Made by a program: the position numbers and the translations under genes. The notes under the pieces were generated by a model, which was not told the DNA's origin, did no database searches, and was given only the letters and a program-made list of their open reading frames with translations. DNA of 45,537 nt from Frankia sp. R82 (GTDB lineage Bacteria > Actinomycetota > Actinomycetes > Frankiales > Frankiaceae), in contig NZ_JAMQQG010000013.1 in assembly GCF_023716925.1 (NCBI RefSeq), forward strand, positions 1 to 45,537. Reading direction: 5' to 3'. Positions 13,028 through 31,248 of this stretch are shown here, piece after piece. Each line of letters starts with the position of its first letter. Within the stretch, counting starts at the first letter, position 1.

Positions 13028-14812
13028 GTGCTGACGCCACTGGTCGACGGCGACCCGCGGCGGGTCGGTCCGTTCACCATCCACAACCGCATCGGCGCCG
13101 GCGGCATGGGAACGGTCTATCTGGGGTTCAACGCCGAGGGTCGGGCGGCGGCGGTGAAGGTTCCCGACGCCCGGTTCGCCGGCGACCCGGAGTTCCGGGA
13201 GCGGTTTCGCCGTGAGGTTGCGGCAGCCCGGCGGGTCCACGGGCGGGCGGTCGCCGCCGTGCTCGACGCCGATCCGGATGCCTCCTCCCCCTGGCTTGCC
13301 ACCGAGTACGTCGAGGGCACCAGCCTCGCCGACGCGGTGCTGCGCCACGGCCGGATGGAGGAACGCCTGCTGCACGGGTTCAGTGTGGGGCTCGCCGACG
13401 CACTGATCGCCATCCACGCCGTCGGTGTCGTGCATCGCGACCTCAAACCGTCGAACATCCTGCTGGCCTGGGACGGCCCGAAGGTCATCGACTTCGGCAT
13501 CGCCCGGGCCGCCGGCACCCCCAGCCACACCCGCACCGGGATTCTGATCGGCACCCTGGCGTGGATGGCCCCCGAGCAGCTGCGCGGGGAGCGGGCCGGC
13601 CCGGCCGCCGACATCTTCGCCTGGGGTGCCTGCGTGACCTACGCGGCGACCGGGCATCCGCCGTTCGCCTCGGAGGAGGCGGATGTCCTCAACCGGATGC
13701 GTGACCAGCGACCGCCCGACATCGCCGGGGTACCGGAGGCGCTGGTCGAGCTGGTCCGGGCCGCGCTGACGCGCCACCCGCAGGACCGCCCGAGCGCGGC
13801 CGACCTGGTCCGTGGCCTGGTCGCCGATCCGCAGGTGCGTACGCCCGCGGACGCCGACCGCGCCGCGGCGCTGGCACTCACCCCGTGGCAGGCCCGACCG
13901 CCCCTGAGCTCGCCCGACGACCGCCCCCCGGCGCTCGACCCCGACCGGCCCGACCAGCCGACCCACCCCCTGGCACTGCGGCCCACCCCGCCGCCGGACG
14001 ACGACCACTCGGCCGGCACGGTGCCGGTGCCACGGCGGCCTGGCCAGACCGATCCGCGCCTGAGCGCCGCCACCCAGCTGGCCATCGGTGCTCCGCGCCA
14101 GGTCGTCGACGGAAGCGACCGCGGGGCCGGTGGCAGCCAGGGCCCTGGCGGGGTTGGCGGGCACGGCGGCGGGAGCGAGCGTGGGCTCGACATCGGCCCG
14201 GGTGGCATCGCGGCCGGCGGGCACGGGGTTGGCGGGCACGGGGACGGTGCTGGTCGGCGGTCGGGCGGGTCCGCTGGAGTGCCCGGCGGCGGTGGGCGTC
14301 TCGAGGTGATGTTCGGCTGGCTGCCGGCGCCCTGGCGTCGGGCCGCGCCGTTGGCCAGCGTCGCGCTGCTGATCGTGCTGCTGGCCGGTGTCGTCGTCGC
14401 GTTTGCCGCCAGTGGCGGTGGCGATCCACAGGTGGAGCCGACACCACCGCCGGCCCAGGGCGGTCTGGCGCCGGGCCCGGGGGGTGGCCTCACCCCGGAC
14501 GGCGCCGATCCTCGCCGTGGCGATGGTCCGCATCGGGGCCCGTCGGTGCCGGCAGGCGGTCGCCCGTCCGCACCGGTCGGCACGACGGCGTCCTCGGGTG
14601 CCGGCCCGTCGGCGACCGCTGGGGTCACGACGACGCCCAGCCCGTCGGTCCCTTCGAGTCCGTCTCCATCCGTCACGACCGGGCCGACGTCCGGCGCGTC
14701 CCCCACCACCAGGCCGACGCCGTCCACGGAGCCCACGGTCGGTGCCTCTCCGTCGAGCTGCCCCACCGGTAACCCGAACGGCGCGGCCGGCAGTACCCCG
14801 CCGGCCTGCTGA
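13028..14812 (+). CDS. Transmembrane Ser/Thr protein kinase (paralogue of kinase 1)
   Basis: A 594-residue kinase closely matching its upstream neighbour over the kinase domain (residues about 12-265: GAGGMGTVYLG, AVKVP, HRDLKPSNILLAWDG, VIDFGIARA, MAPEQLRGERA). A long Pro/Gly-rich linker leads to one membrane segment (about 440-458) and a short Thr/Ser/Pro-rich tail with two cysteines near the end (SSCPTG, PPAC). Unlike kinase 1 it has no folded outer domain, so the two genes probably arose by duplication followed by loss or swap of the sensor. GTG 13028 is chosen because the first residues then align with kinase 1 (VLTPL.DGDP versus MLTPL.SDDP). An ATG at 12998 is an alternative with no ribosome site. 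Confidence 0.87.
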   Translation: MLTPLVDGDPRRVGPFTIHNRIGAGGMGTVYLGFNAEGRAAAVKVPDARFAGDPEFRERFRREVAAARRVHGRAVAAVLDADPDASSPWLATEYVEGTSLADAVLRHGRMEERLLHGFSVGLADALIAIHAVGVVHRDLKPSNILLAWDGPKVIDFGIARAAGTPSHTRTGILIGTLAWMAPEQLRGERAGPAADIFAWGACVTYAATGHPPFASEEADVLNRMRDQRPPDIAGVPEALVELVRAALTRHPQDRPSAADLVRGLVADPQVRTPADADRAAALALTPWQARPPLSSPDDRPPALDPDRPDQPTHPLALRPTPPPDDDHSAGTVPVPRRPGQTDPRLSAATQLAIGAPRQVVDGSDRGAGGSQGPGGVGGHGGGSERGLDIGPGGIAAGGHGVGGHGDGAGRRSGGSAGVPGGGGRLEVMFGWLPAPWRRAAPLASVALLIVLLAGVVVAFAASGGGDPQVEPTPPPAQGGLAPGPGGGLTPDGADPRRGDGPHRGPSVPAGGRPSAPVGTTASSGAGPSATAGVTTTPSPSVPSSPSPSVTTGPTSGASPTTRPTPSTEPTVGASPSSCPTGNPNGAAGSTPPAC

Positions 14813-19957: not shown

Positions 19958-20164
19958 GCGGACGCTACCAACTCACCCGGCCCGATCAGTCCGGCCGTCA
20001 CCCGTCCGGGCCAGTGCCGGCGCACGGGCCGCCGGGCCGGGCCGAAATGCCGATAACCGGGTGGCGAGCCTCATTCCGCGGAGACTTTTCGCTCCGGTAT
20101 GGTTCCTTCGAGCAGCCGGACTCACCGGAGTGCGACTGGTCGGATCACGTCGGACGGGAGCAGC

Positions 20165-22516
20165 GTGACGGGCAGCCCGGGATTTCCGGCAGGCGGGCAT
20201 CCTGTGCCGGGTAACGGACCTGGCCGCCGGTCGGACCTGCCCGGACTACCCCTTCGCCCCCATGATCCGGACGAAATCGGTCCATACCGTCTGCAGCGCG
20301 TCCTCGGTGAAGGCGGGATGGGCACCGTCTACTATGCGGCGCGCGATCACGACGCCCCGGTGGCCGTCAAAGCGATCCGTGCCGAGTACGTGGCCGCGCC
20401 GGGATTCCGCGGTCGCTTTCTCCAGGAAATCAGAAGCGCCCGGCGGGTACAGCCCTTCTGCACGGCGGCGGTGCTCGACTTCGATACCGGGGCCACCCCC
20501 TATCTGGTGACCGAGTATGTCGACGGTCCAGATCTTCGCCGCCAGATCACTTCCGGCGAACCGCTGTCGGAGTTCGACACCAAACGGTTCGCGATCGGCG
20601 TGGCCTCCGCGCTGCGGGCCATCCACAACGCCGGTGTCGTGCACCGGGATCTCAAACCGGCGAACGTGCTGCTGGCCAGGTTCGGTCCCCGGGTCATCGA
20701 CTTCGGGGTGGCCGCGGCGCTGGTCGGCCCCGAGCGCACCGGCGCGGACGCCGGCGACGACCCGGACGTCCCACAGTGGCTGACCCCGGCGTACATGGCC
20801 CCGGAGCAGGCGCAGCGCGCCCGCCACCAGGGCATGTTCGATATTTCCCGACCCGCGGACGTCTTCGCCTGGGCCGGAGTGGTGCTGTACGCGGCGACCG
20901 GGCGGGCGCCGTTCGGCGAGGGCACCTTCGCGGAGCTGTTCGAGCGGGTCGTCTACGAGGAGCCGGACCTGACCGGTCTCGCCCCCGACCTCGAGGTGAT
21001 CGTCCGCCGGGCTCTGCACAAGAATCCCGACCGTCGTCCCGACGCCCGCCAGCTGATCGGCAGCCTGCTCGGCGACACCGAGCCGGAGCCGTTCGAGTCC
21101 GGCAGTTCCGGCGCCAGACGCGACTGGGAGACCACGATCATCGCGCCGCCGCGCCAGCGCGTCCCGGTCGGCCCGACCGGCACCGCCGAGCCCTCCACCG
21201 CGGTCGACCCGTCCGACACCCGGCCCAGCTCGACCCTCGTCGGCCCGCTGGTCGGCGCCGGCTCGTCGGTGGGCGCAGGTGCCGCGGATGGTCCCGGCGG
21301 CTCGGATGGTGCCGGCGGCTCCGATGGTGCCGGCGGCTCCGATGGTGCCGGCGGCTCCGATGGTGCCGGCGGCTCCGATGGTGCCGGTGGCGCGGCGGGT
21401 CGGACCGCTCCCGGACCGCGACCGCGACGTCGAGGGCGACGCGCGCTGTTCGGCCTGGCCTCGGCCGCCGCGGTGATCCTGGCCCTGGTGGCCGTGCTGG
21501 TCCCGCCGTCGCCCGTCTCCCCGTGGCATCCGGCGGCGCGGCTGGGGACCTGCACGACCGTCACCATCAACACCGGGCAGCACGGCACCCCCTACTACGC
21601 CTACGGCAAGGCGCTGAAAGCGCGCATCACCGACCGCTATCCCGGCACCGACGTGGAGGTGCTGGCCACCAACGGCACCGGCGACAACCTGCTGCGCCTG
21701 CAGGATTCCACCGGCACGACCTGCGCGATGGCTGTGGTCCAGCTCAACACCACCGTGGACGCCCGGTTCGGGGTCAACCAGTTCAGCAACGGACCGCTGC
21801 CTGACCTGCGCACGGTCGGCCCGCTCTGGTTCGATCTGCTGCACGTGCTGGTGCGGGCCGACTCGTCGATCACGACGGCGGCGCAGCTGTGCGGCCACCG
21901 GGTCTCCACCGGGCAGAACAACTCCGGCACCGAGCAGCTCGGCGACGTCCTGTTCAAGAACGTACTGAAATGTAATCCACCGACCGTGCCGAACAATCTC
22001 ACCAGCGGCCTGGCGGATCTGCAGGCACACCGGGTCGACGGCCTGGTGTGGGCTGGTGGCGCGCCGACCCCGCAGATCGTGCAGGCCCTGGGCGCCGGGC
22101 TGCGGGTGCGGCTGCTGCCGCTGGCGGACTCCCTCCCGGCGATGATGACGAACTGGGACGACGCCTACCGTTACCGGCTCGGTGACCGGTTCGTCGCCGG
22201 TCGAGTGTACGAGCCGGTGGCCGTCAGCCCCGGCGACTACGCCGGCGTGCCGGAGGTGAACACCATCGGTGCGCCCAACGGGCTGGTGGTCGACGCCGCC
22301 GCAGACCCGGCCCTGGTCGCCTTCGCCGCCCATACGCTGGTCGAGGACCGCGCCGACTTCGAGCGCGCGCTGTGGGGCGCCGACGATGACCGGCATTTCC
22401 GCTCCGTACGCGATGCCATCACGGCCAGTTCGCTGTACTGCCTGATCCCGCTCGCCCCCGCCGCCGAGCGCTACTACGCGGGCATCGACATCCGCCCCTC
22501 CTGCACCGCCCACTGA
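20165..22516 (+). CDS. Transmembrane Ser/Thr protein kinase fused to a TAXI-type solute-binding domain
   Basis: A 783-residue fusion. The kinase domain (about 38-300) has GEGGMGTVYYA, Lys in VAVKAIR, HRDLKPANVLL, DFG in VIDFGVAAA and MAPEQAQ. A linker with five GGSDGA repeats and a basic RPRRRGRR patch precedes one membrane segment (about 428-450). The outer 320 residues match TAXI family solute-binding proteins: VTINTGQHGTPYYAYGKAL, the VLATNGTGDNLLRL stretch, DLLHVLVRADSSITT, GHRVSTGQNNSGTEQL, and a terminal AAERYYAG. So this looks like a kinase switched by an external small ligand. GTG 20165 follows CGGGAG by 4 nt. It is 238 bp upstream of the peptide/hydroxylase genes, same strand. Confidence 0.88.
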   Translation: MTGSPGFPAGGHPVPGNGPGRRSDLPGLPLRPHDPDEIGPYRLQRVLGEGGMGTVYYAARDHDAPVAVKAIRAEYVAAPGFRGRFLQEIRSARRVQPFCTAAVLDFDTGATPYLVTEYVDGPDLRRQITSGEPLSEFDTKRFAIGVASALRAIHNAGVVHRDLKPANVLLARFGPRVIDFGVAAALVGPERTGADAGDDPDVPQWLTPAYMAPEQAQRARHQGMFDISRPADVFAWAGVVLYAATGRAPFGEGTFAELFERVVYEEPDLTGLAPDLEVIVRRALHKNPDRRPDARQLIGSLLGDTEPEPFESGSSGARRDWETTIIAPPRQRVPVGPTGTAEPSTAVDPSDTRPSSTLVGPLVGAGSSVGAGAADGPGGSDGAGGSDGAGGSDGAGGSDGAGGSDGAGGAAGRTAPGPRPRRRGRRALFGLASAAAVILALVAVLVPPSPVSPWHPAARLGTCTTVTINTGQHGTPYYAYGKALKARITDRYPGTDVEVLATNGTGDNLLRLQDSTGTTCAMAVVQLNTTVDARFGVNQFSNGPLPDLRTVGPLWFDLLHVLVRADSSITTAAQLCGHRVSTGQNNSGTEQLGDVLFKNVLKCNPPTVPNNLTSGLADLQAHRVDGLVWAGGAPTPQIVQALGAGLRVRLLPLADSLPAMMTNWDDAYRYRLGDRFVAGRVYEPVAVSPGDYAGVPEVNTIGAPNGLVVDAAADPALVAFAAHTLVEDRADFERALWGADDDRHFRSVRDAITASSLYCLIPLAPAAERYYAGIDIRPSCTAH
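21296..21385 (+). repeat. Five 18-bp tandem repeats in the kinase-TAXI gene
   Basis: Five nearly identical in-frame units of GGCGGCTCCGATGGTGCC encode GGSDGA in the linker before the membrane segment. Confidence 0.92.
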
Positions 22517-22721: not shown

Positions 22722-22754
22722 TGAGCGGAACCGTCGGGGATGAACGGGAGCGCC

Positions 22755-22937
22755 ATGGCTGACGCCGCCCTCGGTTTGCAGCTCGCCGACGTACGCGAGC
22801 TGAGTCTCGACAAGCTCCGGGACAGCGCGGACGAGGTTCTACGGTCCGGCGTCGACCAGCTGCTGCACAACGTCGATGCGTTCAGCGCATGGTCTGCCAA
22901 CGACGACAGCGGCGGCTGCCGTAGCCGGCTGGACTGA
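22755..22937 (+). CDS. FxsA-like small peptide, candidate RiPP precursor
   Basis: A 60-residue peptide. The first 40 residues (LADVRELSLDKLRDSADEVL, then SGVDQLLHNV) look like the acidic/leucine-rich leader of FxSxx-COOH (FxsA) precursors. The tail reads AFSAWSANDDSGGCRSRLD. It does not end in F-x-S-x-x; instead it has F43, W46, an N-D-D cluster and one Cys, which could be the modified core. ATG 22755 has GGGAG 4 nt upstream; an ATG at 22740 is in frame but poorly placed. Its TGA overlaps the ATG of the HExxH gene (TGATG), so the two are translationally coupled. Seen: the coupling and the leader pattern. Inferred: that it is the substrate. Confidence 0.65.
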   Translation: MADAALGLQLADVRELSLDKLRDSADEVLRSGVDQLLHNVDAFSAWSANDDSGGCRSRLD

Positions 22938-24889
22938 TGCCGGCGGCACCGCCCGGTCGCCCGCCCGACAGTCCGCAGATCGGCCTGCACACGCTGTCCG
23001 GTACTGACGTCGACTCGCTGGCACTGGGCAGGCTCGATCACGGCGTCGTGCGGCGGCTGCTGGACGCCGAGACCAGTTATCGCCGCCTGGCCCTGCGCGC
23101 CGCGCTGGAGCTCTTGCGGGTACAGCCCGGCGCTGCGGGACCGCTGGTGCCGGTGGACGACGCGTGGGAGCTGCTCGTCGCGGCCGAGCGCCGCGACCCC
23201 GCGGCGGCCCGGGCGGTCATCGACCGGCCGTTCACCGGGGCCTGGGCCGCCCGGCTGCTGCGCCGGCTGCGCGGTCAGCCCTCCGGCGCCGAGCCGGCAG
23301 GGGTCCATGCGGAGTTACCGCTGTGGGTGGAGGTCGGTTACCTGCATGCGCTGGCGGTCGCGACCGCGGTGCGCGCCGGATGCGCCTGCACCCTGGCGGT
23401 CCCCGCCCGCCGTGGCGTCGTCCATCTGCCCTCGCTCGGCCATGCCCACCTCGCCGGGCTGGATCTCTGGGACCACGCCACGGTCGAGGTGACCGACGCG
23501 GGCGCACGCGTCGTCGGTCCCCTGGCCGCGGTACACCTCACCGTTCCCGGCCATCCGGACGGCTCCGACCGTCCATCCGATGCCGACCGTCCAGGCGACC
23601 TGCACGACGCGCCGTCGCAGCTGCACTGGCGGGCGACCCGATCACTTGCCAGTGGGGTCACCATCGAGGACGTCGACCCGTATCGCCAGGTCAGCGGCAC
23701 AGCCGGCCCGGACTGGCTACCCGCCGTGCAGATCGCCGAGTGGGAAAGCCGGCTTGCCGCGGCCCGGCGTGTGCTGCGGGCGGGGCATCCGCGGACCGCG
23801 GCGGCACTCGACGCGACGATCACCGCCATCGTGCCACGGCCGGCCGCCCAGCGCTTCCGATCATTCAGCGCCACCTCGGCGGACGCGGTCGGCAGCGTGG
23901 AGCTCTCCGTGCCGTCGGACGGGGTGGACGGCGCCGTGATGCTCTCCCACGAACTGCGCCATGCGGTGCTCGGCATCGTGACGCACCTGGGCGATCTGCT
24001 CGATCCCGCGGCAGCTGCACGACGGTACCGGGTGCCCTGGCGGGACGACCCGCGCCCCGCCAGGGGCATGCTGCAGGGGATGTACGCGTTCTTCGGCGTT
24101 GCCGACTTCTGGCACGTCCAGCGCCACCTGGCGCGAGGCAACGAAGCGATGCTCGCCCACTTCGAGTTCGCCCTGTGGCGGGGCGCAGTGTTCGACACCG
24201 GCCGCGAGCTGCTGCGGACCGGGGCGTTGACCGCGCTGGGCCGCCGCTTCGTGACCGGTGTCGTCACCACGGTGCGCAGCTGGCTCACCGAGCCGGTACC
24301 GGCCGAGGCCGGCCGCCTCGCGGAACTGGCCACCACGGATGCCCGCGCGCTGTGGCACGTGCATCATCATCTCGTCGCGAGGTCGCAGGTCGCGCGCGGC
24401 CTTGCCGCAGCGTGGCTCGCCGGCGCCCAGGTGCCGCCCGTCGAGCCGGCCGCGATCGCCTATCGCCTCGATCCCGATCCGGATGCCCGCGCATTCGACA
24501 CCCGGGCCTGCCTGGCCCGGTTGTGGCTGGCCGACCGGGATGTCTTTCGCCGCACCGAGCGGGAGGGGGCGCAGCGGGTCTATCGCGGCGCGAGCGCCGC
24601 CGACTGTGCTCTCGTACGCGGTGACCGGGACCGAGCGCGGGCGCTCTACCTGGCACAGCTGAACCGGCCCGGGCAGCACCGGCGGGCGCTGGTCGGGCTG
24701 GGCCTGGCTCTCGGCGCGGACCATCCGGCGGGCCGTGTGCTGCAGATGCGGCCCGAGCTCGTCGCGGCGGTGACCCGGGAGGTCGTCCGAAGCGACGGGC
24801 CGGCGGCGGCGCAGGGGGTAGTGCCCCATCTCGCCGCCTGGCTCGCCCCCCTCGTCGCGCCGCCGTCCCCTGCTCCACCTGACGCCTGA
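22937..24889 (+). CDS. HExxH-type peptide beta-hydroxylase (RiPP maturase)
   Basis: A 650-residue protein of the family called HEXXH motif-containing peptide modification protein, members of which are alpha-ketoglutarate/iron peptide beta-hydroxylases. The metal motif is HELRH (His338, Glu339, His342) inside VMLSHELRHAVLGIVTHLGDL, followed by RVPWRDDPRPARGMLQGMYA, the family's second signature, and a VADFW segment. The N-terminal 300 residues include SSF-less but typical family segments (RSFSATSADAVGSVELS just before the metal site). It is a stand-alone enzyme, not fused to a radical SAM domain. It overlaps the peptide gene by 1 nt and is convergent with fxsT. Its likely job is hydroxylating the linked peptide. 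Confidence 0.85.
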   Translation: MPAAPPGRPPDSPQIGLHTLSGTDVDSLALGRLDHGVVRRLLDAETSYRRLALRAALELLRVQPGAAGPLVPVDDAWELLVAAERRDPAAARAVIDRPFTGAWAARLLRRLRGQPSGAEPAGVHAELPLWVEVGYLHALAVATAVRAGCACTLAVPARRGVVHLPSLGHAHLAGLDLWDHATVEVTDAGARVVGPLAAVHLTVPGHPDGSDRPSDADRPGDLHDAPSQLHWRATRSLASGVTIEDVDPYRQVSGTAGPDWLPAVQIAEWESRLAAARRVLRAGHPRTAAALDATITAIVPRPAAQRFRSFSATSADAVGSVELSVPSDGVDGAVMLSHELRHAVLGIVTHLGDLLDPAAAARRYRVPWRDDPRPARGMLQGMYAFFGVADFWHVQRHLARGNEAMLAHFEFALWRGAVFDTGRELLRTGALTALGRRFVTGVVTTVRSWLTEPVPAEAGRLAELATTDARALWHVHHHLVARSQVARGLAAAWLAGAQVPPVEPAAIAYRLDPDPDARAFDTRACLARLWLADRDVFRRTEREGAQRVYRGASAADCALVRGDRDRARALYLAQLNRPGQHRRALVGLGLALGADHPAGRVLQMRPELVAAVTREVVRSDGPAAAQGVVPHLAAWLAPLVAPPSPAPPDA

Positions 24890-24952: not shown

Positions 24953-24979
24953 GATCCGACGGCCCTGGCCGGACGGATC
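24953..24979. terminator. Bidirectional hairpin between the HExxH gene and fxsT
   Basis: GATCCGACGGCC, a CT loop, and GGCCGGACGGATC form a long stem with one mismatch/bulge. It sits in the 88-bp convergent gap and overlaps the fxsT stop codon, so it can serve both genes. Confidence 0.6.
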
Positions 24980-27900
24980 AGATGGGCATCGGGTCGATGT
25001 CACAGTCCAGCCGGATCCAGGCGACCACCTGGCGCGCGGCGGGGTGGTCGCGGCCGAGCACCGCGTCTATCCGGGTCAGCGTGCTGGCCTGCCGCTCGCG
25101 TGCCTCATCGGTGCGGCCGAGGGACCGCAGGTCCATCGCCAGGTTCGCCGCCACAGCCAGCGTGGAGGGATGCTGCTCGCCGAGCACCTCGGTCGAGATC
25201 GCCAGCGTGCGTTCGTCCCGCTCGAGCGCCGCGGCGAAGCGGCCCAGCGCGTGCAGGTCGCTGGCAAGGTTCGCGGCTGCGGCGAGCGTGCTGGGATGGG
25301 CCTCATCGAGTCGTTCGACGAAGGCGGCCAGGGTCTGCTCGTCGAGGTCGAGCGCGGCGTCGGCACGACCTGCCAGCCGGTCGATGACGGCAAGGTTGAC
25401 CGCCGCGGCGAGGGTGTGCGGATGCGTCTCGCCGATTTTTTCACCGTAGCGACGCAGCGTCCGCAGGCACATCGCGCGGGCCTCGTGCAGCAGCCCAGCG
25501 TGGCGCAGATCGATGGACAGTCCCAGTGCGGCGGCGAGCGACGACGGGTGCCAGCCACCGTAACGGTTGAAGAAGCGTTGCTCGACCTCACGAGACAGGG
25601 TGAGGGCCCGCGGATGGTCGCCGGCCTTGCGATGGGCCACCGCCAGGTAGCGGCTGGCGTGCAACCGGGACGGATGCTCCGCCGAGATGTCGTACAGCCG
25701 TCGGAAACCGGCCTCGATGTTCTCCTGCGCGGCCCGGGCACCGAGGTAGTCACCGAGCTCCCGGTGGTCGAGGGTGACCCCGGTCAGGGTCGACAGACTG
25801 CTCGAGCTGTCCTCCCCGAACAGTCGCACGCTCTGGACCCAGGCCTGTTCGCCGAGCACCACGGACTCGCTGAACCGGCCGAGCAGGCGCAGGCACACCG
25901 CCACATTGTGGGCGGTGCTCAGCGTCTGCGGATCATCGGAGCCGAACGCCCTGCGGGCGCGGGCATGGGCGTCCTGGGCGATCTCGAGTGCCGCCGCGAA
26001 CTCGCCGCGCCAGCGCAGGTCGGCGCCGACGTTGCCCATGAGCTCGTTCGTCATCTCGGCGTCGGGACCGTTGATCCTGGTCGACAGCTCGTAGGTGCGC
26101 TGGTTCACCTCGGCGGCCTCGGCGTAGCGGCCGACGGCGACCAGCCCCCAGCCGAACCGCAGCCCGATCTGGAGGGTGTACGGATCCTCGTCACCGAAGC
26201 CGGCCCGCCACGCGTCGTACACCCGGCGGCCGAACTCGACACTGCCCTCGTGGTCGCCCCAGGCCCAGAGGTAGTCACACAGGTTGAGCAGCACCTGTCG
26301 GACCCGGGGATCCTCGCACCGCTCGGTGTTCGACGCGACCAGATGCGGATACAGGTCCGCGTACACCGGCCACAGCGCGGGGTTGAACGGGTCGTTCGGG
26401 TCGCTTGCCGCGAGCATCACATGCGCGCCATGGCGCATGGTCCCCTGCTGCTGCGGCGTCATCCGGTTGACCAGCACGGCCTGCACGAGCCGGTGCATTC
26501 CGATGGAGCTGTCGCGATGGTCGATGCGGGCCAGCGCGAAGCGGTGGACGTCGCGGATCGCGCGGCTGAGCTTCACCGGGTCGCGCAACGCCGCGTCCAG
26601 GGGCGGGGAGATCGTTTCGTTGAACGCCCGGGACAGCAGCTGACGGGAGATCGGCGCCGGCGCAAAGGAGGCGCATACCTGGAGAAGCTCCAGCGCCGCC
26701 GGGTTGCTTTCGGCCAGCCGGTCCAGCGACACGTTCCAGGCGGCGGTGACCGGGCGCGGGTAGTCGGCCGTCTGGGTGTCGAGCAGATCGGTCAGCTTGC
26801 TCTCGAGCAGTAGCAGATACTCGTCGGCGGACATACCGGTTTCGGCCCGCCAGGTCGCGGCGGTCTCGATCGCCAGCGGAAGGTCACCAAGGGCGGCGGC
26901 GAGCCGGTCGGCGTCGGCGTCGGTCAGCGGGCCGCCGCGGCTACGCAGCAGGTCGATGCTCTCGTCACGGCGGAACACGGCCACTTCGAGGGGGCGGCTC
27001 ACGTTTGCCCACCCGGGATCACGCGAAGTGACCAGGATCCGCCCCGTCGGGGAGGCGGGGAAGTACTCTCGCACCGACGCGGGGTCGTCGGCGTTGTCGA
27101 ACACGAGCAGCCAACGCGGGTACGGGTCCCCCAACCGCAGCGCCTCGACGACCTGCCGGACGGCGACGTTCGCCTCGGCACCGACGTCAAGGCCGAGCCG
27201 CTGGCCCAGCTCGATGAGGGCGTTGCCGATCTGGACGCTCTGCTCGGCGGGAATCCACCAGATGACGTCGAAGTCGCCCAGATGCCGGTAGACATACTCG
27301 GCGGCAAGCTGCGTCTTGCCGACCCCGCCCATCCCGTGCAGCGCCTCGGGCAGGACGGAGGTGATCCCCTCGCGCAACCGGACGTCAAGGTCGACCAGCA
27401 GATCGTGCCGACCCGTGAAGTGGGGATTGCGTGGCGGCACGTTGGCCCACACCCGCGGCAGGTGACCCGACGGCTCAGGGGTACTCGGTTCCGGAGTACT
27501 CGGTTCCGGGGCACTCGGTGCCGGCGTTTCGGTGCCGCGCACGGGTGGACCCGTCCCGCTGTCGTCCCGCCGGCTGGCGGGAATCTCCGTCGAGGACCCG
27601 ATGGCCTCGGGCATGAGTCGACCCACCCCAGCGATACTACTCATAGTGATGAGATTTTCACTCTCAGTCTCGGATTGTGGACGTGGTGTCGGGCTGCGGG
27701 TCGGGCTGGGCCCCGGCGACCGCGTGGGTGGGCGCGGGGGCGGCGGGGTGGTCGGGTCGACAGCGCGGCGCACCCGTTCGACGTCGGAGCGGGTGAGCTG
27801 GGCACGCAGGGCGCCGCGCAGGTCGGGATCGGGCTCGAACGTCGTCCGGGCGGTACCGGGCGTCAGCAGACCGAAGGCGAACACCTCGGACAGGTCCCGC

Positions 27901-28955
27901 CGGTGGGCACCGGCAATGCCGGCGACCGCACGCAGGCCACGACGTCCCAGCGCGGGGACGACCGCCAGCAGCGCGGCCAGGCGCTGGGCGGTGGGCGAGG
28001 CGTAGGCGCAGAAGGCGGCGAGCCGCTCGGCCGCCGATGACGCCAGGTCCGGTGCGGCCGGGTCTGGTGCCGGCGGTGCGCCGGGCCCGGCGATGACCGC
28101 AGCGGTCTCGAACCAGCTCAGATCCCGCGCGGCGACGAAGTGGGCCCACCGGGCGATCCACCCTGCGTCGATTTCCAGCACGGGTATCGGCACCGTCGGG
28201 AACCCGGCTGCCACGCCGGCCCCGCCCGCAGGCGCACCCACGCCGTCCGGGGCGCCCGCGCTGTCCGTCCCACCCGCACGGCTCGTCCCGGTGGAGCGTG
28301 GGGGCGCCTGCTGGCCGTAGTGCCACGAGCTCACCCGGCCCGGATCGTCGGCACCGACCCCGAGCATCCGCACCCGCGCGGCCCGCAGGTCGCTCTGCTG
28401 CCAGGTGTGCGCCGCGAGCACGTCGAGGACCGCCACCGGCCCGCCGACCGCCCAACCGCCGAGTACCCGCGCCATCCGTCCGGACCGCCAGGCCGGGCCC
28501 ATCCCGTCGGTCAGCAGCCAGGTCATCCGCCGCGCCGCGCCCCCCCGGGGACGGACGGCGTCCAGGTAGTCGACCAGGCCACGATCGGTCAAACCACGAT
28601 CGGTCGGATTGTGGTGAGTCGGATTGTGGTGAGTCGGATCGTGGTCGGGAACCAGGTAGGTGACCGCGACCCGGTGGAACGCCCGCTGTTCCCGCAGCGT
28701 CCCGGCCAGCACGGGAACCGCATCGGACCACACGGCGGAAAACGTCGGGTTCGCGTCGACCACGAGGTGGAGATCCCAGGGATCCGCCGGCAGCGGGCGC
28801 AGGGCCAGGCCCAGGGTCTCGGCGAATCCACGCTCGTCCCAGCCGGTCGACGGCAGCCCACCGCGAGGTGACTCCCGCAGGTATCGCAGCCGGGTCGGCT
28901 TGTCCGCCTGGTCGTCGGCCGGCCGGTGCAGGCCACGGGCGTCGTCCGCCGTCAT
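24978..28955 (-). CDS. fxsT: FxsT-like STAND protein: vWA-like, winged helix, NB-ARC, TPR
   Basis: A 1325-residue protein matching FxSxx-COOH system TPR protein FxsT. An N-terminal SAV_2336-type vWA-like domain (about 40-320) has WDLHLVVDANPTFSAVW, a degenerate MIDAS. A winged-helix-like part (about 330-420) and a Pro/Ser/Thr-rich linker follow. The NB-ARC ATPase (about 515-790) has P-loop GMGGVGKTQLA (Lys547), Walker B WLLVFDNADDP, ILVTSRDPGW and GDLPLAIE. About ten 42-residue kinesin-light-chain-type TPRs (HPSTLAAAANLA) fill the C-terminus. It should be an ATP-switched sensor or scaffold. ATG 28955 has GGGAG 6-7 nt upstream and overlaps the VMAP stop as ATGA, so the two are coupled. Confidence 0.88.
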   Translation of the reverse strand: MTADDARGLHRPADDQADKPTRLRYLRESPRGGLPSTGWDERGFAETLGLALRPLPADPWDLHLVVDANPTFSAVWSDAVPVLAGTLREQRAFHRVAVTYLVPDHDPTHHNPTHHNPTDRGLTDRGLVDYLDAVRPRGGAARRMTWLLTDGMGPAWRSGRMARVLGGWAVGGPVAVLDVLAAHTWQQSDLRAARVRMLGVGADDPGRVSSWHYGQQAPPRSTGTSRAGGTDSAGAPDGVGAPAGGAGVAAGFPTVPIPVLEIDAGWIARWAHFVAARDLSWFETAAVIAGPGAPPAPDPAAPDLASSAAERLAAFCAYASPTAQRLAALLAVVPALGRRGLRAVAGIAGAHRRDLSEVFAFGLLTPGTARTTFEPDPDLRGALRAQLTRSDVERVRRAVDPTTPPPPRPPTRSPGPSPTRSPTPRPQSETESENLITMSSIAGVGRLMPEAIGSSTEIPASRRDDSGTGPPVRGTETPAPSAPEPSTPEPSTPEPSGHLPRVWANVPPRNPHFTGRHDLLVDLDVRLREGITSVLPEALHGMGGVGKTQLAAEYVYRHLGDFDVIWWIPAEQSVQIGNALIELGQRLGLDVGAEANVAVRQVVEALRLGDPYPRWLLVFDNADDPASVREYFPASPTGRILVTSRDPGWANVSRPLEVAVFRRDESIDLLRSRGGPLTDADADRLAAALGDLPLAIETAATWRAETGMSADEYLLLLESKLTDLLDTQTADYPRPVTAAWNVSLDRLAESNPAALELLQVCASFAPAPISRQLLSRAFNETISPPLDAALRDPVKLSRAIRDVHRFALARIDHRDSSIGMHRLVQAVLVNRMTPQQQGTMRHGAHVMLAASDPNDPFNPALWPVYADLYPHLVASNTERCEDPRVRQVLLNLCDYLWAWGDHEGSVEFGRRVYDAWRAGFGDEDPYTLQIGLRFGWGLVAVGRYAEAAEVNQRTYELSTRINGPDAEMTNELMGNVGADLRWRGEFAAALEIAQDAHARARRAFGSDDPQTLSTAHNVAVCLRLLGRFSESVVLGEQAWVQSVRLFGEDSSSSLSTLTGVTLDHRELGDYLGARAAQENIEAGFRRLYDISAEHPSRLHASRYLAVAHRKAGDHPRALTLSREVEQRFFNRYGGWHPSSLAAALGLSIDLRHAGLLHEARAMCLRTLRRYGEKIGETHPHTLAAAVNLAVIDRLAGRADAALDLDEQTLAAFVERLDEAHPSTLAAAANLASDLHALGRFAAALERDERTLAISTEVLGEQHPSTLAVAANLAMDLRSLGRTDEARERQASTLTRIDAVLGRDHPAARQVVAWIRLDCDIDPMPI
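27481..27525 (-). repeat. Three 15-bp tandem repeats in the fxsT linker
   Basis: Units of GTACTCGGTTCCGGA-type (plus strand) encode the E-P-S-T-P repeat between the winged-helix and NB-ARC domains. Confidence 0.85.
28575..28649 (-). repeat. Five 15-bp tandem repeats in the vWA-like part of fxsT
   Basis: Two units ending in CACGATCGGT and three of CGGATTGTGGTGAGT type (plus strand) encode THHNPTHHNP and TDRGLTDRGL, an insertion in a loop of the vWA-like domain. Such loop insertion should be tolerated by the fold. Confidence 0.88.
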
Positions 28956-30469
28956 GTGATCTCCCACGACGTCGCGTCGGACCGGGCACATCCGGCGAAC
29001 TGTCCCGGATCATCCCAGAGCAGGGTTGCCGTGCGCCGGGCAGCGGCGTCGCGGGCCTTCGCCGGATCGCCGAGGGCGGCGAGGTCACCGAGCGACTCCA
29101 GGCGGGCGAGGTTCTCGATGCGGAAGCGGTGCGGCAGGTCGAGGGGACTGCCGTCGACCAGCAGGGAGATCAGGGCGGTGTCGTCAGCGGGACGGTCGGG
29201 GTCGGGCTGCTCCCAGGCAGCGACACCGATGCCCGCCGCCAGCGCACCGGTGAGCTGACGGTGGGCCGGCGATCCGGGGGTGGGCAGACCGCTGATCGCG
29301 ACCGCACTGATCCGCTGGTCGGTGTCCAGTCCATAGACGCCGACCTGGGCGGCGTCTACCGCCACCGGAGCGGCGCCGCCCGCCTGCGTGAGCGCGGCCC
29401 AGCGCTGCAACCAGCGAAACCGGGCGGCGGCAGGCCAGTGCGCACGGTCAAAGCTGCGCACCACGAGGGCGTGGTCCTGCAGCAGGAGACGGCGGGTGCC
29501 ACCGACTGTGCGGCCCCACCCGGTGACGGGCAGGGCGAGCTGCTCCACCGGTAGGACGATCTCCACGGTCAGGGTGGCAAGCGCACCGGTCGGCAGCTCA
29601 CCCGCCAGGACCTCCTCGGCCTCGTCGATCACCTGGGCAGCGATCTGTTCGAACTCCTCCGGGAGCGCCGGTCGGGCCGGACCACGGTAGGGGACGCTCT
29701 CCCCCGCCCAGCCCAGCCACCAGGCCGCGCGATGCGTGCGCGCCGACCCGAGCGGTTGGAACTGCAGGCAGACCACGCAGGTGCGCCGCGCCCCGGACCA
29801 GGTGGAGAAGACAGCGGCTTCGAGCCGGGACCGGTTCAGCTGCGGGGTGAGATCCCGCTGATAGGCCAGCGCGCGCAGCCACGCCTCGACCCGGACCGCC
29901 GTGGTGGGTGTGAGCAGATCGGCGCAGCGCAGCAGGAACATCGCGTGCGGCGCCAGGGCATCCGGGGGCGGCTCCCGCCCGGCGGCCCATACGAACAGCT
30001 GCCAGGCGTCCACGCAGTGCTCGGGCGGCTGCCCCGGGCGGCAGGCCTGGCGAAACGCTCGAGTCGCCGCCTCCGCGGGGATCGCACCCAGCTCCGTGCG
30101 CAGCACCTCCCACAACTCACCAGCCTGGTCGGCGACCTCCAGGGCGTCCCATTCATCCTGCAGGTGCCGCAGGTTACGTACCAGTACCGAGTTCGGACGC
30201 AGGTCCTCGACCGCGTCGACGAGGGTCTGCACCCCGTCGTCGAGATCGTCGACGCATCCCGTCACGAACTGGAAGCACCAGTCGCGGGGAACGTCGAGCT
30301 GCGGAAGGTACAGCCGGACGCCGGCACGCCGCTCGAAACACTCCACCAACAGGGCCCGCTGGGCCAGGTCGAGCGGAGCGGCGCGGTGGTCGAGCACGTC
30401 GACGAACCCACGCAGCAACTGCGCACGCAACAGATCACGCCGCACGGACGACGATTCGCGCTGGGTCAC
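28952..30469 (-). CDS. VMAP-like protein with N-terminal effector-associated domain 2
   Basis: About 505 residues. The N-terminal 90 residues form an EAD2-like adaptor domain (GVRLYLPQLDVPRDW, LVDAVEDLRPNS), homologous to the neighbouring EAD protein. The rest matches the vWA-MoxR-associated protein (VMAP) middle and C-terminal regions (ACRPGQPPEHCVDAWQLFVW; LTVEIVLPVEQLALPVTGWG; DGSPLDLPHRFR). VMAPs work with a vWA protein and an NTPase in conflict-type signalling; here FxsT carries both. Its stop overlaps the fxsT start (ATGA). Start choice: GTG 30469 precedes the EAD2 fold and the frame upstream loses coding-like third positions; ATG 30598 or ATG 30634 (14 nt after the EAD gene) are alternatives. 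Confidence 0.78.
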   Translation of the reverse strand: MTQRESSSVRRDLLRAQLLRGFVDVLDHRAAPLDLAQRALLVECFERRAGVRLYLPQLDVPRDWCFQFVTGCVDDLDDGVQTLVDAVEDLRPNSVLVRNLRHLQDEWDALEVADQAGELWEVLRTELGAIPAEAATRAFRQACRPGQPPEHCVDAWQLFVWAAGREPPPDALAPHAMFLLRCADLLTPTTAVRVEAWLRALAYQRDLTPQLNRSRLEAAVFSTWSGARRTCVVCLQFQPLGSARTHRAAWWLGWAGESVPYRGPARPALPEEFEQIAAQVIDEAEEVLAGELPTGALATLTVEIVLPVEQLALPVTGWGRTVGGTRRLLLQDHALVVRSFDRAHWPAAARFRWLQRWAALTQAGGAAPVAVDAAQVGVYGLDTDQRISAVAISGLPTPGSPAHRQLTGALAAGIGVAAWEQPDPDRPADDTALISLLVDGSPLDLPHRFRIENLARLESLGDLAALGDPAKARDAAARRTATLLWDDPGQFAGCARSDATSWEIT

Positions 30470-30566
30470 GGCCCCCCCGGGTGCTCGCACCAGGCTCGCC
30501 GGCAGCCGCCCCTCATCGCGCAGCTCGCCGAATCTGGTGCACAGCGTAACCCGACGGACAGATCGG

Positions 30567-30579
30567 GGAGAGTCTCTCC
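30567..30579. promoter_or_regulatory. Perfect 13-bp palindrome upstream of the VMAP gene
   Basis: GGAGAGTCTCTCC has 6-bp arms around one base. It lies between the EAD gene and the preferred VMAP start. It could be an operator, or coding if VMAP starts further upstream. Confidence 0.35.
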
Positions 30580-30648
30580 TCGACTGGCCGATCGTCATCG
30601 GACGTTCCCGTTCCTCGTCGGACACCACCCTCATGAGCAGACGCTCCG

Positions 30649-31248
30649 TCAGGAGCCGTCGGTGGCGAACACGCGGTTGCCCGGAAAGGCCCTGGCTGCG
30701 GCCGCGAGGACCCGCCGACGCCCGTCGCGGATCAGCCCGTGCCCGAGCAGCCATGACACCTGCGTCCAGAAGGCAGCCGCGTCGCCCTCGGCGACCGGGA
30801 TGCGTTCCGCCGGCAGCCCGGCCGCGACCAGCAGCTGCCGCGCGCCGACCCCGGTACCGAAGATCACCGCCAGCTCACGGAGCTCGACCGGTTCCAGCTG
30901 CCGGTGCTGCTGCATCGACGCCCGGTCATCGGGTGCCTCCTCAGCCACAACGAGCCGGGCGAGCTGGCGGGACAGCCGGGAACCGGGCTGGAGATCATCC
31001 ACCGCGCGACACAGCGCGGTGAGCCCGCCCGGCTCCTGCGCCAGCTCGTGGATGAGGGCGGCGAACCACTGGTGGGGCACGTCGTACTCGGCGAGGTACA
31101 GCTCGCACCCCGGCCCAAGGTGATCGACGACGCGGTCATGCAGCAGCCGGCGGGCGGCGGCACGTTCGAACGTGGGCGCGTCAGCCAGCGCGGCCACGAT
31201 CAGCGCACGCGCGACCCGGGGGTCGTCCGCCCCGTCCTGCGTCCGCAC
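30649..31248 (-). CDS. EAD2-EAD1 adaptor protein
   Basis: A 199-residue protein made of two effector-associated domains and no effector. Residues 10-100 are EAD2-like (CELYLAEYDVPHQWFAALIH, CRAVDDLQPGS), clearly related to the first domain of the VMAP protein next door. Residues 118-195 are EAD1-like (LEPVELRELAVIFGTG, AAFWTQVSWLLGHGLI, AAARAFPGNRVF). By family logic EADs pair with like EADs, so this should bridge VMAP (through EAD2) to some EAD1-bearing effector or kinase elsewhere in the genome. GTG 31248 is the only start near the domain; the ribosome site is weak. It is the first gene of the minus-strand operon. Confidence 0.78.
   Translation of the reverse strand: MRTQDGADDPRVARALIVAALADAPTFERAAARRLLHDRVVDHLGPGCELYLAEYDVPHQWFAALIHELAQEPGGLTALCRAVDDLQPGSRLSRQLARLVVAEEAPDDRASMQQHRQLEPVELRELAVIFGTGVGARQLLVAAGLPAERIPVAEGDAAAFWTQVSWLLGHGLIRDGRRRVLAAAARAFPGNRVFATDGS

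Follow-up and report, generated by a model that had tools for sequence, protein, structure and literature searches.

A divergent RxD-type precursor peptide with an FxsA-like leader, probably oxidised by the neighbouring HExxH enzyme, in a VMAP locus of Frankia

Small variable proteins encoded beside a zincin-like gene were described in VMAP systems by Kaur et al. (2020; PMC7159879), whose text splits them into FxSxx, RxD, acidic and FtsH types. The HExxH protein was taken there for a metallopeptidase, and an AP-ATPase fused to a vWA protein is reported for the RxD and acidic types. As that text presents it, the RxD type combines a small, rapidly diverging protein ending in RxD, a zincin-like HExxH neighbour, a VMAP protein and a larger protein to which an AP-ATPase with TPRs is fused, and it has no radical SAM enzyme. 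The FxSxx-COOH cyclophane RiPPs, with TIGR04268 precursors and FxsB, are a second group of related systems.

The chemistry of HExxH-family enzymes has been described for other precursors. According to the text of PMC12636437, two HEXXH enzymes hydroxylate Gln and cleave oxidatively before a C-terminal ARMD; PosC and PflC are described as hydroxylating Gln, and Asn in one variant, before that motif. The first ARMD residue is critical (Gln or Val at this place is hydroxylated and Ser gives -2 Da, all without cleavage), and R, M and D are singly dispensable for PosC. The introduction of the same paper states that ChlH-type enzymes hydroxylate Asp and His. In the text on nitrilobacillins (PMC13060819), the HExxH-family enzyme PesO hydroxylates Pro before the conserved C-terminal R(V/T)DN of PesA, a motif reported for a set of clusters, roughly one in four of which has no HExxH gene. 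No tail motif was found in the text of PMC12257519, and the 'RxD motif' in the text of PMC8195603 is unrelated, being a residue pattern of Death-like domains. In the literature searched, which included few subscription papers, we found no paper linking the RxD peptides of VMAP loci to this oxidation chemistry.

We analysed a stretch of 45,537 nucleotides from Frankia sp. R82 (hereafter the window), in which a small ORF precedes a gene for an HExxH protein (Table 1). Its translation is MADAALGLQLADVRELSLDKLRDSADEVLRSGVDQLLHNVDAFSAWSANDDSGGCRSRLD, followed by the stop codon, and the 60-residue product ends in GGCRSRLD. An alternative start at position 22740 would give 65 residues; the start given in Table 1 is favoured because seven peptides of the window's clade align from M[AVP]D. 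The stop codon of the ORF overlaps the start codon of the enzyme gene in all close loci except that of the seventh clade member, L116, in which 8 bases separate TGA and ATG.

Table 1. Features of the precursor locus, in window coordinates
Feature	Position	Strand	Basis or remark
Precursor peptide gene, 60 aa, FxsA-like leader and RxD end	22755..22937	+	ORF; homologues beside HExxH genes in 73/76 loci
Leader segment, residues 11-38	22785..22868	+	TIGR04268 positions 1-28, 13.2 bits
Core and tail, residues 39-60	22869..22934	+	Mostly variable in clade; N49, G52, C55 and R58 columns recur
N49 codon, candidate oxidation site	22899..22901	+	N in 5/7, Q in 1, R in 1
C55 codon, candidate oxidation site	22917..22919	+	C in 4/7
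C-terminal R-L-D	22926..22934	+	RxD-COOH in 41/73 related loci with a precursor
TGATG stop/start overlap (precursor TGA 22935-22937, HExxH ATG at 22937)	22935..22939	+	Same overlap in 6/6 close loci, window included
Standalone alpha-ketoglutarate HExxH family protein, 650 residues	22937..24889	+	TIGR04267; predicted fold match
HELRH motif, residues 338-342	23948..23962	+	H338, E339 and H342 retained in the compared groups
SAV_2336-related N-terminus fused to NB-ARC and TPR (FxsT type)	24978..28991	-	NF040586, 846 bits; NB-ARC and TPR domains
EAD2-VMAP protein	28952..30754	-	VMAP-C, VMAP-M0, EAD2

The window shares with the RxD type, as described in the text of Kaur et al. (2020), the small diverging protein with its RxD end, the HExxH neighbour, the VMAP protein, the AP-ATPase with TPRs joined to a larger protein, and the lack of a radical SAM match. 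It differs in that no MoxR was found and in its diverged core with N49 and C55; furthermore, the fusion partner of the RxD type is a vWA protein, whereas the fused N-terminus in the window is only putatively vWA (NF041121, 155.5 bits, below the cut-off of 200). The window thus fits the RxD type as defined in the text, rather than in the sequence tables, of that paper. None of the 15 window ORFs scanned codes for a radical SAM protein, and FxsB gave no tblastn match in the window. One MoxR query (E 1e-5) detected no MoxR AAA+ gene in the window, which is therefore not classed as a complete VMAP-ternary system; the VMAP and NB-ARC/TPR genes overlap (28952-28991), so a MoxR gene could not fit in between. 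Directly upstream of the precursor, at 20099-22516 on the plus strand, lies a gene for a Ser/Thr kinase fused to an NMT1/TAXI-type domain. Of 80 loci searched, only L036 has both parts, with 77% and 73% identity.

The earlier note on this DNA had suggested, as a check, aligning the small ORFs upstream of related HExxH genes, and such homologues are present. A scan of genome contigs, run with 11 aligned enzymes, found 192 relatives, and the best 80 stretches, corresponding to 76 loci, were kept. All but three of these loci (L086, L100 and L109, without a precursor at E<1e-5) have a homologous small ORF that ends within 600 bases of the matched start of the enzyme; because contig ends truncate several loci, absences in those carry little weight. 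In the same set of best matches, tblastn (E<=1e-8) detected an FxsT-type gene (at least 400 bits) in 68, VMAP in 49, MoxR in 37 (not in L036) and FxsB in one of the 76 loci. Within the genus, an HExxH relative at E<=1e-10 is present in 12 of 13 genomes. A plasmid search with the peptide gave a single weak match, inside a TetR gene, and Pfam gave no useful match for the window peptide or three related peptides.

The R-x-D end is common in this family. In addition to the exact ends counted in Table 1, seven more precursor loci have RxD within five residues of the end. Among all 87 precursor ORFs found in 74 of the loci (best of 192 relatives), 43 have RxD as their last three residues, the middle one being F, V, I or L in 39, compared with 24 of the 18099 other ORFs of those loci. 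Among 44 representatives sharing less than 70% enzyme identity, 23 have the RxD end; when their last 20 residues were shuffled, the count averaged 0.48 and never exceeded 4 in 2000 trials. YNPSRFD, YNPQRLD, AKRVD and GERID are frequent ends. The earlier reading of the core missed the last three residues of the window peptide, R-L-D, the end common to the wider family. The FGGY stretch is kept in the Frankiaceae precursors of L040, L042 and L044, which lack an NPxRxD end. Ten Streptomyces loci (L061, L064, L066, L075, L078, L082, L089, L093, L099 and L106) harbour two HExxH-precursor cassettes on opposite strands, one with a peptide of the type often ending in ERFD and the other with GGY[NQ]PxR.

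The resemblance to the FxsA leader holds, although TIGR04268 aligns with residues 11-38 of the window peptide only, at E=0.081 and below its cut-off of 28 bits. In a search of 1896 ORFs from five sequences, a profile of 48 non-Frankiaceae ORFs retrieved the window ORF with E=4.6e-5, the next-best window ORF being at 0.024; as its seeds were chosen for RxD within five residues of the end, this is a fair test of the leader and not of the tail. The profile also matched all 11 Frankiaceae loci given (E 2.7e-13 to 0.0028; L114 only at 0.046) and the peptides of three FxsB-linked loci (1.6e-7, 1.3e-6 and 0.0017). It served as an independent check, as a leader regular expression had missed many loci and the profile used in its place was seeded partly from the loci under study. 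Thus, judged by these matches, the N-terminal half of the precursor is a diverged FxsA-type leader. The suspicion that a profile relying on the C-terminal motif misses such peptides proved correct as well: seven of eight relatives are not above 28 bits with TIGR04268 (six score 13.6-24.7 bits and one gives no match), and the only one that passes ends in FQSSI.

The window peptide itself, as had been noted, does not have an FxSxx core: it ends in CRSRLD. It shares with the FxSxx-COOH RiPPs a homologous leader and HExxH and FxsT-type neighbours, but differs in its end, its TIGR04268 score and the lack of an FxsB match in the window, and we rejected an FxSxx identity on these three grounds. FxSxx ends accompany FxsB in L112 and L113, and five further Frankiaceae loci (L124, L125, L127, L129 and L130) have FxSxx ends. 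It is very improbable that the peptide is an FxSxx-type cyclophane precursor on which an FxsB encoded at another locus acts in trans, since, homologous leaders and an fxsB gene on contig C111 of the same genome notwithstanding, it has no F-x-S-x-x end, FxsB is a rarity among the related loci and C111 has an HExxH gene and an FxsA-like peptide (23.6 bits, under the TIGR04268 cut-off) of its own. Besides the window peptide, an FxsA-like peptide is encoded in L115 of this genome (C111:26000-45900), at 14140-14640 on the minus strand, in the surroundings of FxsB, HExxH and two FxsT-like genes. Its F-M-S-R-I is internal, with APELS after it, and a strict C-terminal FxSxx rule would reject this peptide too. 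Taken together, the small ORF very probably codes for a divergent RxD-type precursor. The earlier note had suspected an unrecognised precursor family; this is right for the profile library but not for the literature, as the RxD type is in the text of Kaur et al. (2020), and the window peptide is a divergent member of that named type, not a new family.

The window pairs with L036 (99) in a quickly built tree of 83 enzymes (SH-aLRT support only), and both group with four more Frankia loci (100); L116 was added as a further clade member by 54% enzyme identity and its peptide, not by the tree. In the seven-member alignment of the peptides the core mostly varies, although N49, C55 and R58 recur in the tail. 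The R58 column has R in six of the seven peptides, and the G52 column has G in six, with S in the window. Six candidate modification sites had been named in the earlier note: N49 and C55 recur, D50 is found in two of the seven peptides, and F43, W46 and D51 occur in the window alone. Within-core shuffles reached the N49 count in 0 of 20000 trials and the C55 count in 0.1% (without L038, 0.015% for N and 0.1% for C); since relatedness is left out of account and the gaps are those set by the alignment program, they are support, not proof. With homologous ORFs present and tail residues recurring, we found neither an isolated ORF nor a tail without any conserved residue, the two outcomes that had been named as speaking against the proposal.

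The exact RxD end is confined to the window in its 10-row clade of the enzyme tree, the sister L036 ending in RLH. A family search covered 35 genomes, 25 of which have a match at E<=1e-50, and 19 loci were put to the profile. Five of these 19 have an RxD end (RRLD, SRRLD twice, RRFD and NRTD), which makes the RLD of the window more likely kept than accidental; L128 and L134 gave no profile match, and the peptide ends of L118 and L131 are identical to those of L040 and L042. From the peptide sequences, it is more likely that the closest relatives of the window have mostly lost or altered the RLD end.

Codon comparisons bear on whether the core is still a substrate. The precursors of F. tisae and F. 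torreyi differ by six synonymous and no non-synonymous changes in their first 39 codons; in the last eight, paired from the C-terminus as the tails differ by one residue, there are two synonymous and seven non-synonymous changes. When the window is compared with L036, its nearest relative, about 10 synonymous and 18 non-synonymous differences are seen in the first 38 codons (pS 0.35, pN 0.21), which suggests only mild constraint and counts against a real gene. On sequence comparison as a whole, the small ORF is nevertheless confirmed as a real gene, beyond chance. The changes in the tail and the mild constraint on the leader would both fit relaxed selection. They, together with the exact RxD missing from nine of the ten clade rows, favour a decaying precursor, in which the leader is kept to bind or stabilise the enzyme and the core is no longer a substrate. 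We consider this rather unlikely, in view of the recurrence of N49, C55 and R58, at counts that for N and C are rarely reached by the shuffles (relatedness ignored), and of the metal ligands retained in all seven clade enzymes.

The enzyme matches TIGR04267 at E=2.1e-42 (145.1 bits, above the cut-off of 40). The solved chains nearest to it are 22nu and 22ob, of which 22ob bears the title SjiH-Ni, and 8s5f, the HExxH domain of ChlH, titled alpha-ketoglutarate dependent oxygenase; the sequence matches have E values of 1.6e-75 (22nu) and 7.4e-13 (8s5f). A predicted model (mean pLDDT 77.6, pTM 0.81) matched SjiH with Z 26.7 (3.3 Å over 393) and the ChlH HExxH domain with Z 20.0 (3.8 Å over 319), matches with Z below 8 being left uninterpreted. 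The HExxH motif is aligned with those of SjiH and ChlH, and the predicted fold and the HExxH residues agree. A literature search for SjiH gave unrelated papers only among the matches listed. By profile and predicted fold, the protein belongs with the alpha-ketoglutarate HExxH oxygenases. Its reading by Kaur et al. (2020) as a metallopeptidase, which would cut the precursor and free a small C-terminal peptide, is quite unlikely. According to PMC12636437, PflC hydrolyses a truncated substrate without leader, in keeping with such an activity; however, the text also states that PflC did not hydrolyse full-length PflA without oxygen, and the nearest solved folds are those of SjiH and the ChlH oxygenase domain.

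All seven clade enzymes keep H338, E339, H342, W368, R369, D371, R373, E410 and R415, and the residues of the PWRxDPR motif are conserved. All seven deviate at positions 151, 332, 337, 341 and 469, which are 93-100% conserved in a comparison set of 41 rows (38 with an exact RxD and three with RxD near the end; L080, L090 and L094, with exact ends, are not included). Position 318 is changed in six of them, L116 keeping F. Among the 138 columns with at least 85% conservation, 24 are changed in at least three of five clade rows. These are spread along the protein, so the changes are not specific to the active site. The HEHRH motif of ChlH also carries R at the position of R341, so that this residue is not new to the family.

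For PflC/PosC with PflA/PosA, among the closest described systems, the text of PMC12636437 likewise gives an HExxH-family enzyme, the C-terminal part of a leader peptide as substrate (as proposed for the window) and, with ARMD, an R-x-D sequence. These systems differ from the window in their NHLP leader class and MNIO-nitroreductase partner, and the residue before R is Ala in PflA/PosA and Ser in the window. PesO/PesA, as described in PMC13060819, resembles the window in its HExxH-family enzyme and the R(V/T)DN end of the precursor, and differs in its MNIO and nitrile-synthetase partners and in the precursor itself. R is preceded by E, S, Q or K in 37 of the 43 RxD ends, and by A or G in none; by the logic of PMC12636437, side-chain oxidation would be likelier than cleavage. 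The R-x-D itself need not be an enzyme recognition element, as the ARMD residues are singly dispensable and R(V/T)DN is reported also for clusters without an HExxH gene.

A broader reading, which we hold to be unlikely, is that the C-terminal R-x-D is a substrate tag shared by alpha-ketoglutarate HExxH enzymes across separate families, that is, the RxD peptides of VMAP loci, the ARMD of PflA/PosA (PMC12636437) and the R(V/T)DN of PesA (PMC13060819), and that the window clade has shifted its substrate and perhaps its chemistry. The core with N49 and C55 would then have arisen together with the enzyme changes at the five positions listed above. The spread of the changed enzyme columns and the R in the ChlH motif lower the odds of this reading.

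The best explanation as a whole, and one we moderately favour, is that of an RxD-type precursor oxidised in its C-terminal part by the neighbouring HExxH enzyme; that the core is oxidised we likewise regard as probable. The lack of the exact RxD end in the rest of the clade and of a MoxR match in the window speak against it, as do the signs of relaxed selection. The precursor would belong to an RxD-type peptide-modification module beside the VMAP protein and an NB-ARC/TPR effector. Its conserved N-terminal leader would bring the peptide to the HExxH enzyme of the overlapping gene, which may oxidise C-terminal residues in an Fe/alpha-ketoglutarate reaction, most likely by beta-hydroxylation, with N49 as the first candidate site and C55 as the second. 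The R-x-D end may help docking, and the product may serve as a signal or effector that targets the NB-ARC/TPR and VMAP proteins encoded nearby or works by way of them.

Three things give these observations their worth: the enzyme is read differently, the RxD statistic is strong, and both core and enzyme of the clade are shifted from the common type. In practical terms, peptides of this kind escape the NCBIfam FxSxx model, whose cut-off is not reached by eight of the nine peptides scanned (the window peptide and eight relatives). The peptide is probably altered by the adjacent oxidising enzyme, as part of a proposed cell-defence gene set that is already in the literature. If this is true, a broad set of actinobacterial conflict-system loci, with an enzyme once taken for a peptidase, would be tied to an oxygenase family that is now being characterised, and would offer small enzyme-substrate pairs for expression and testing.
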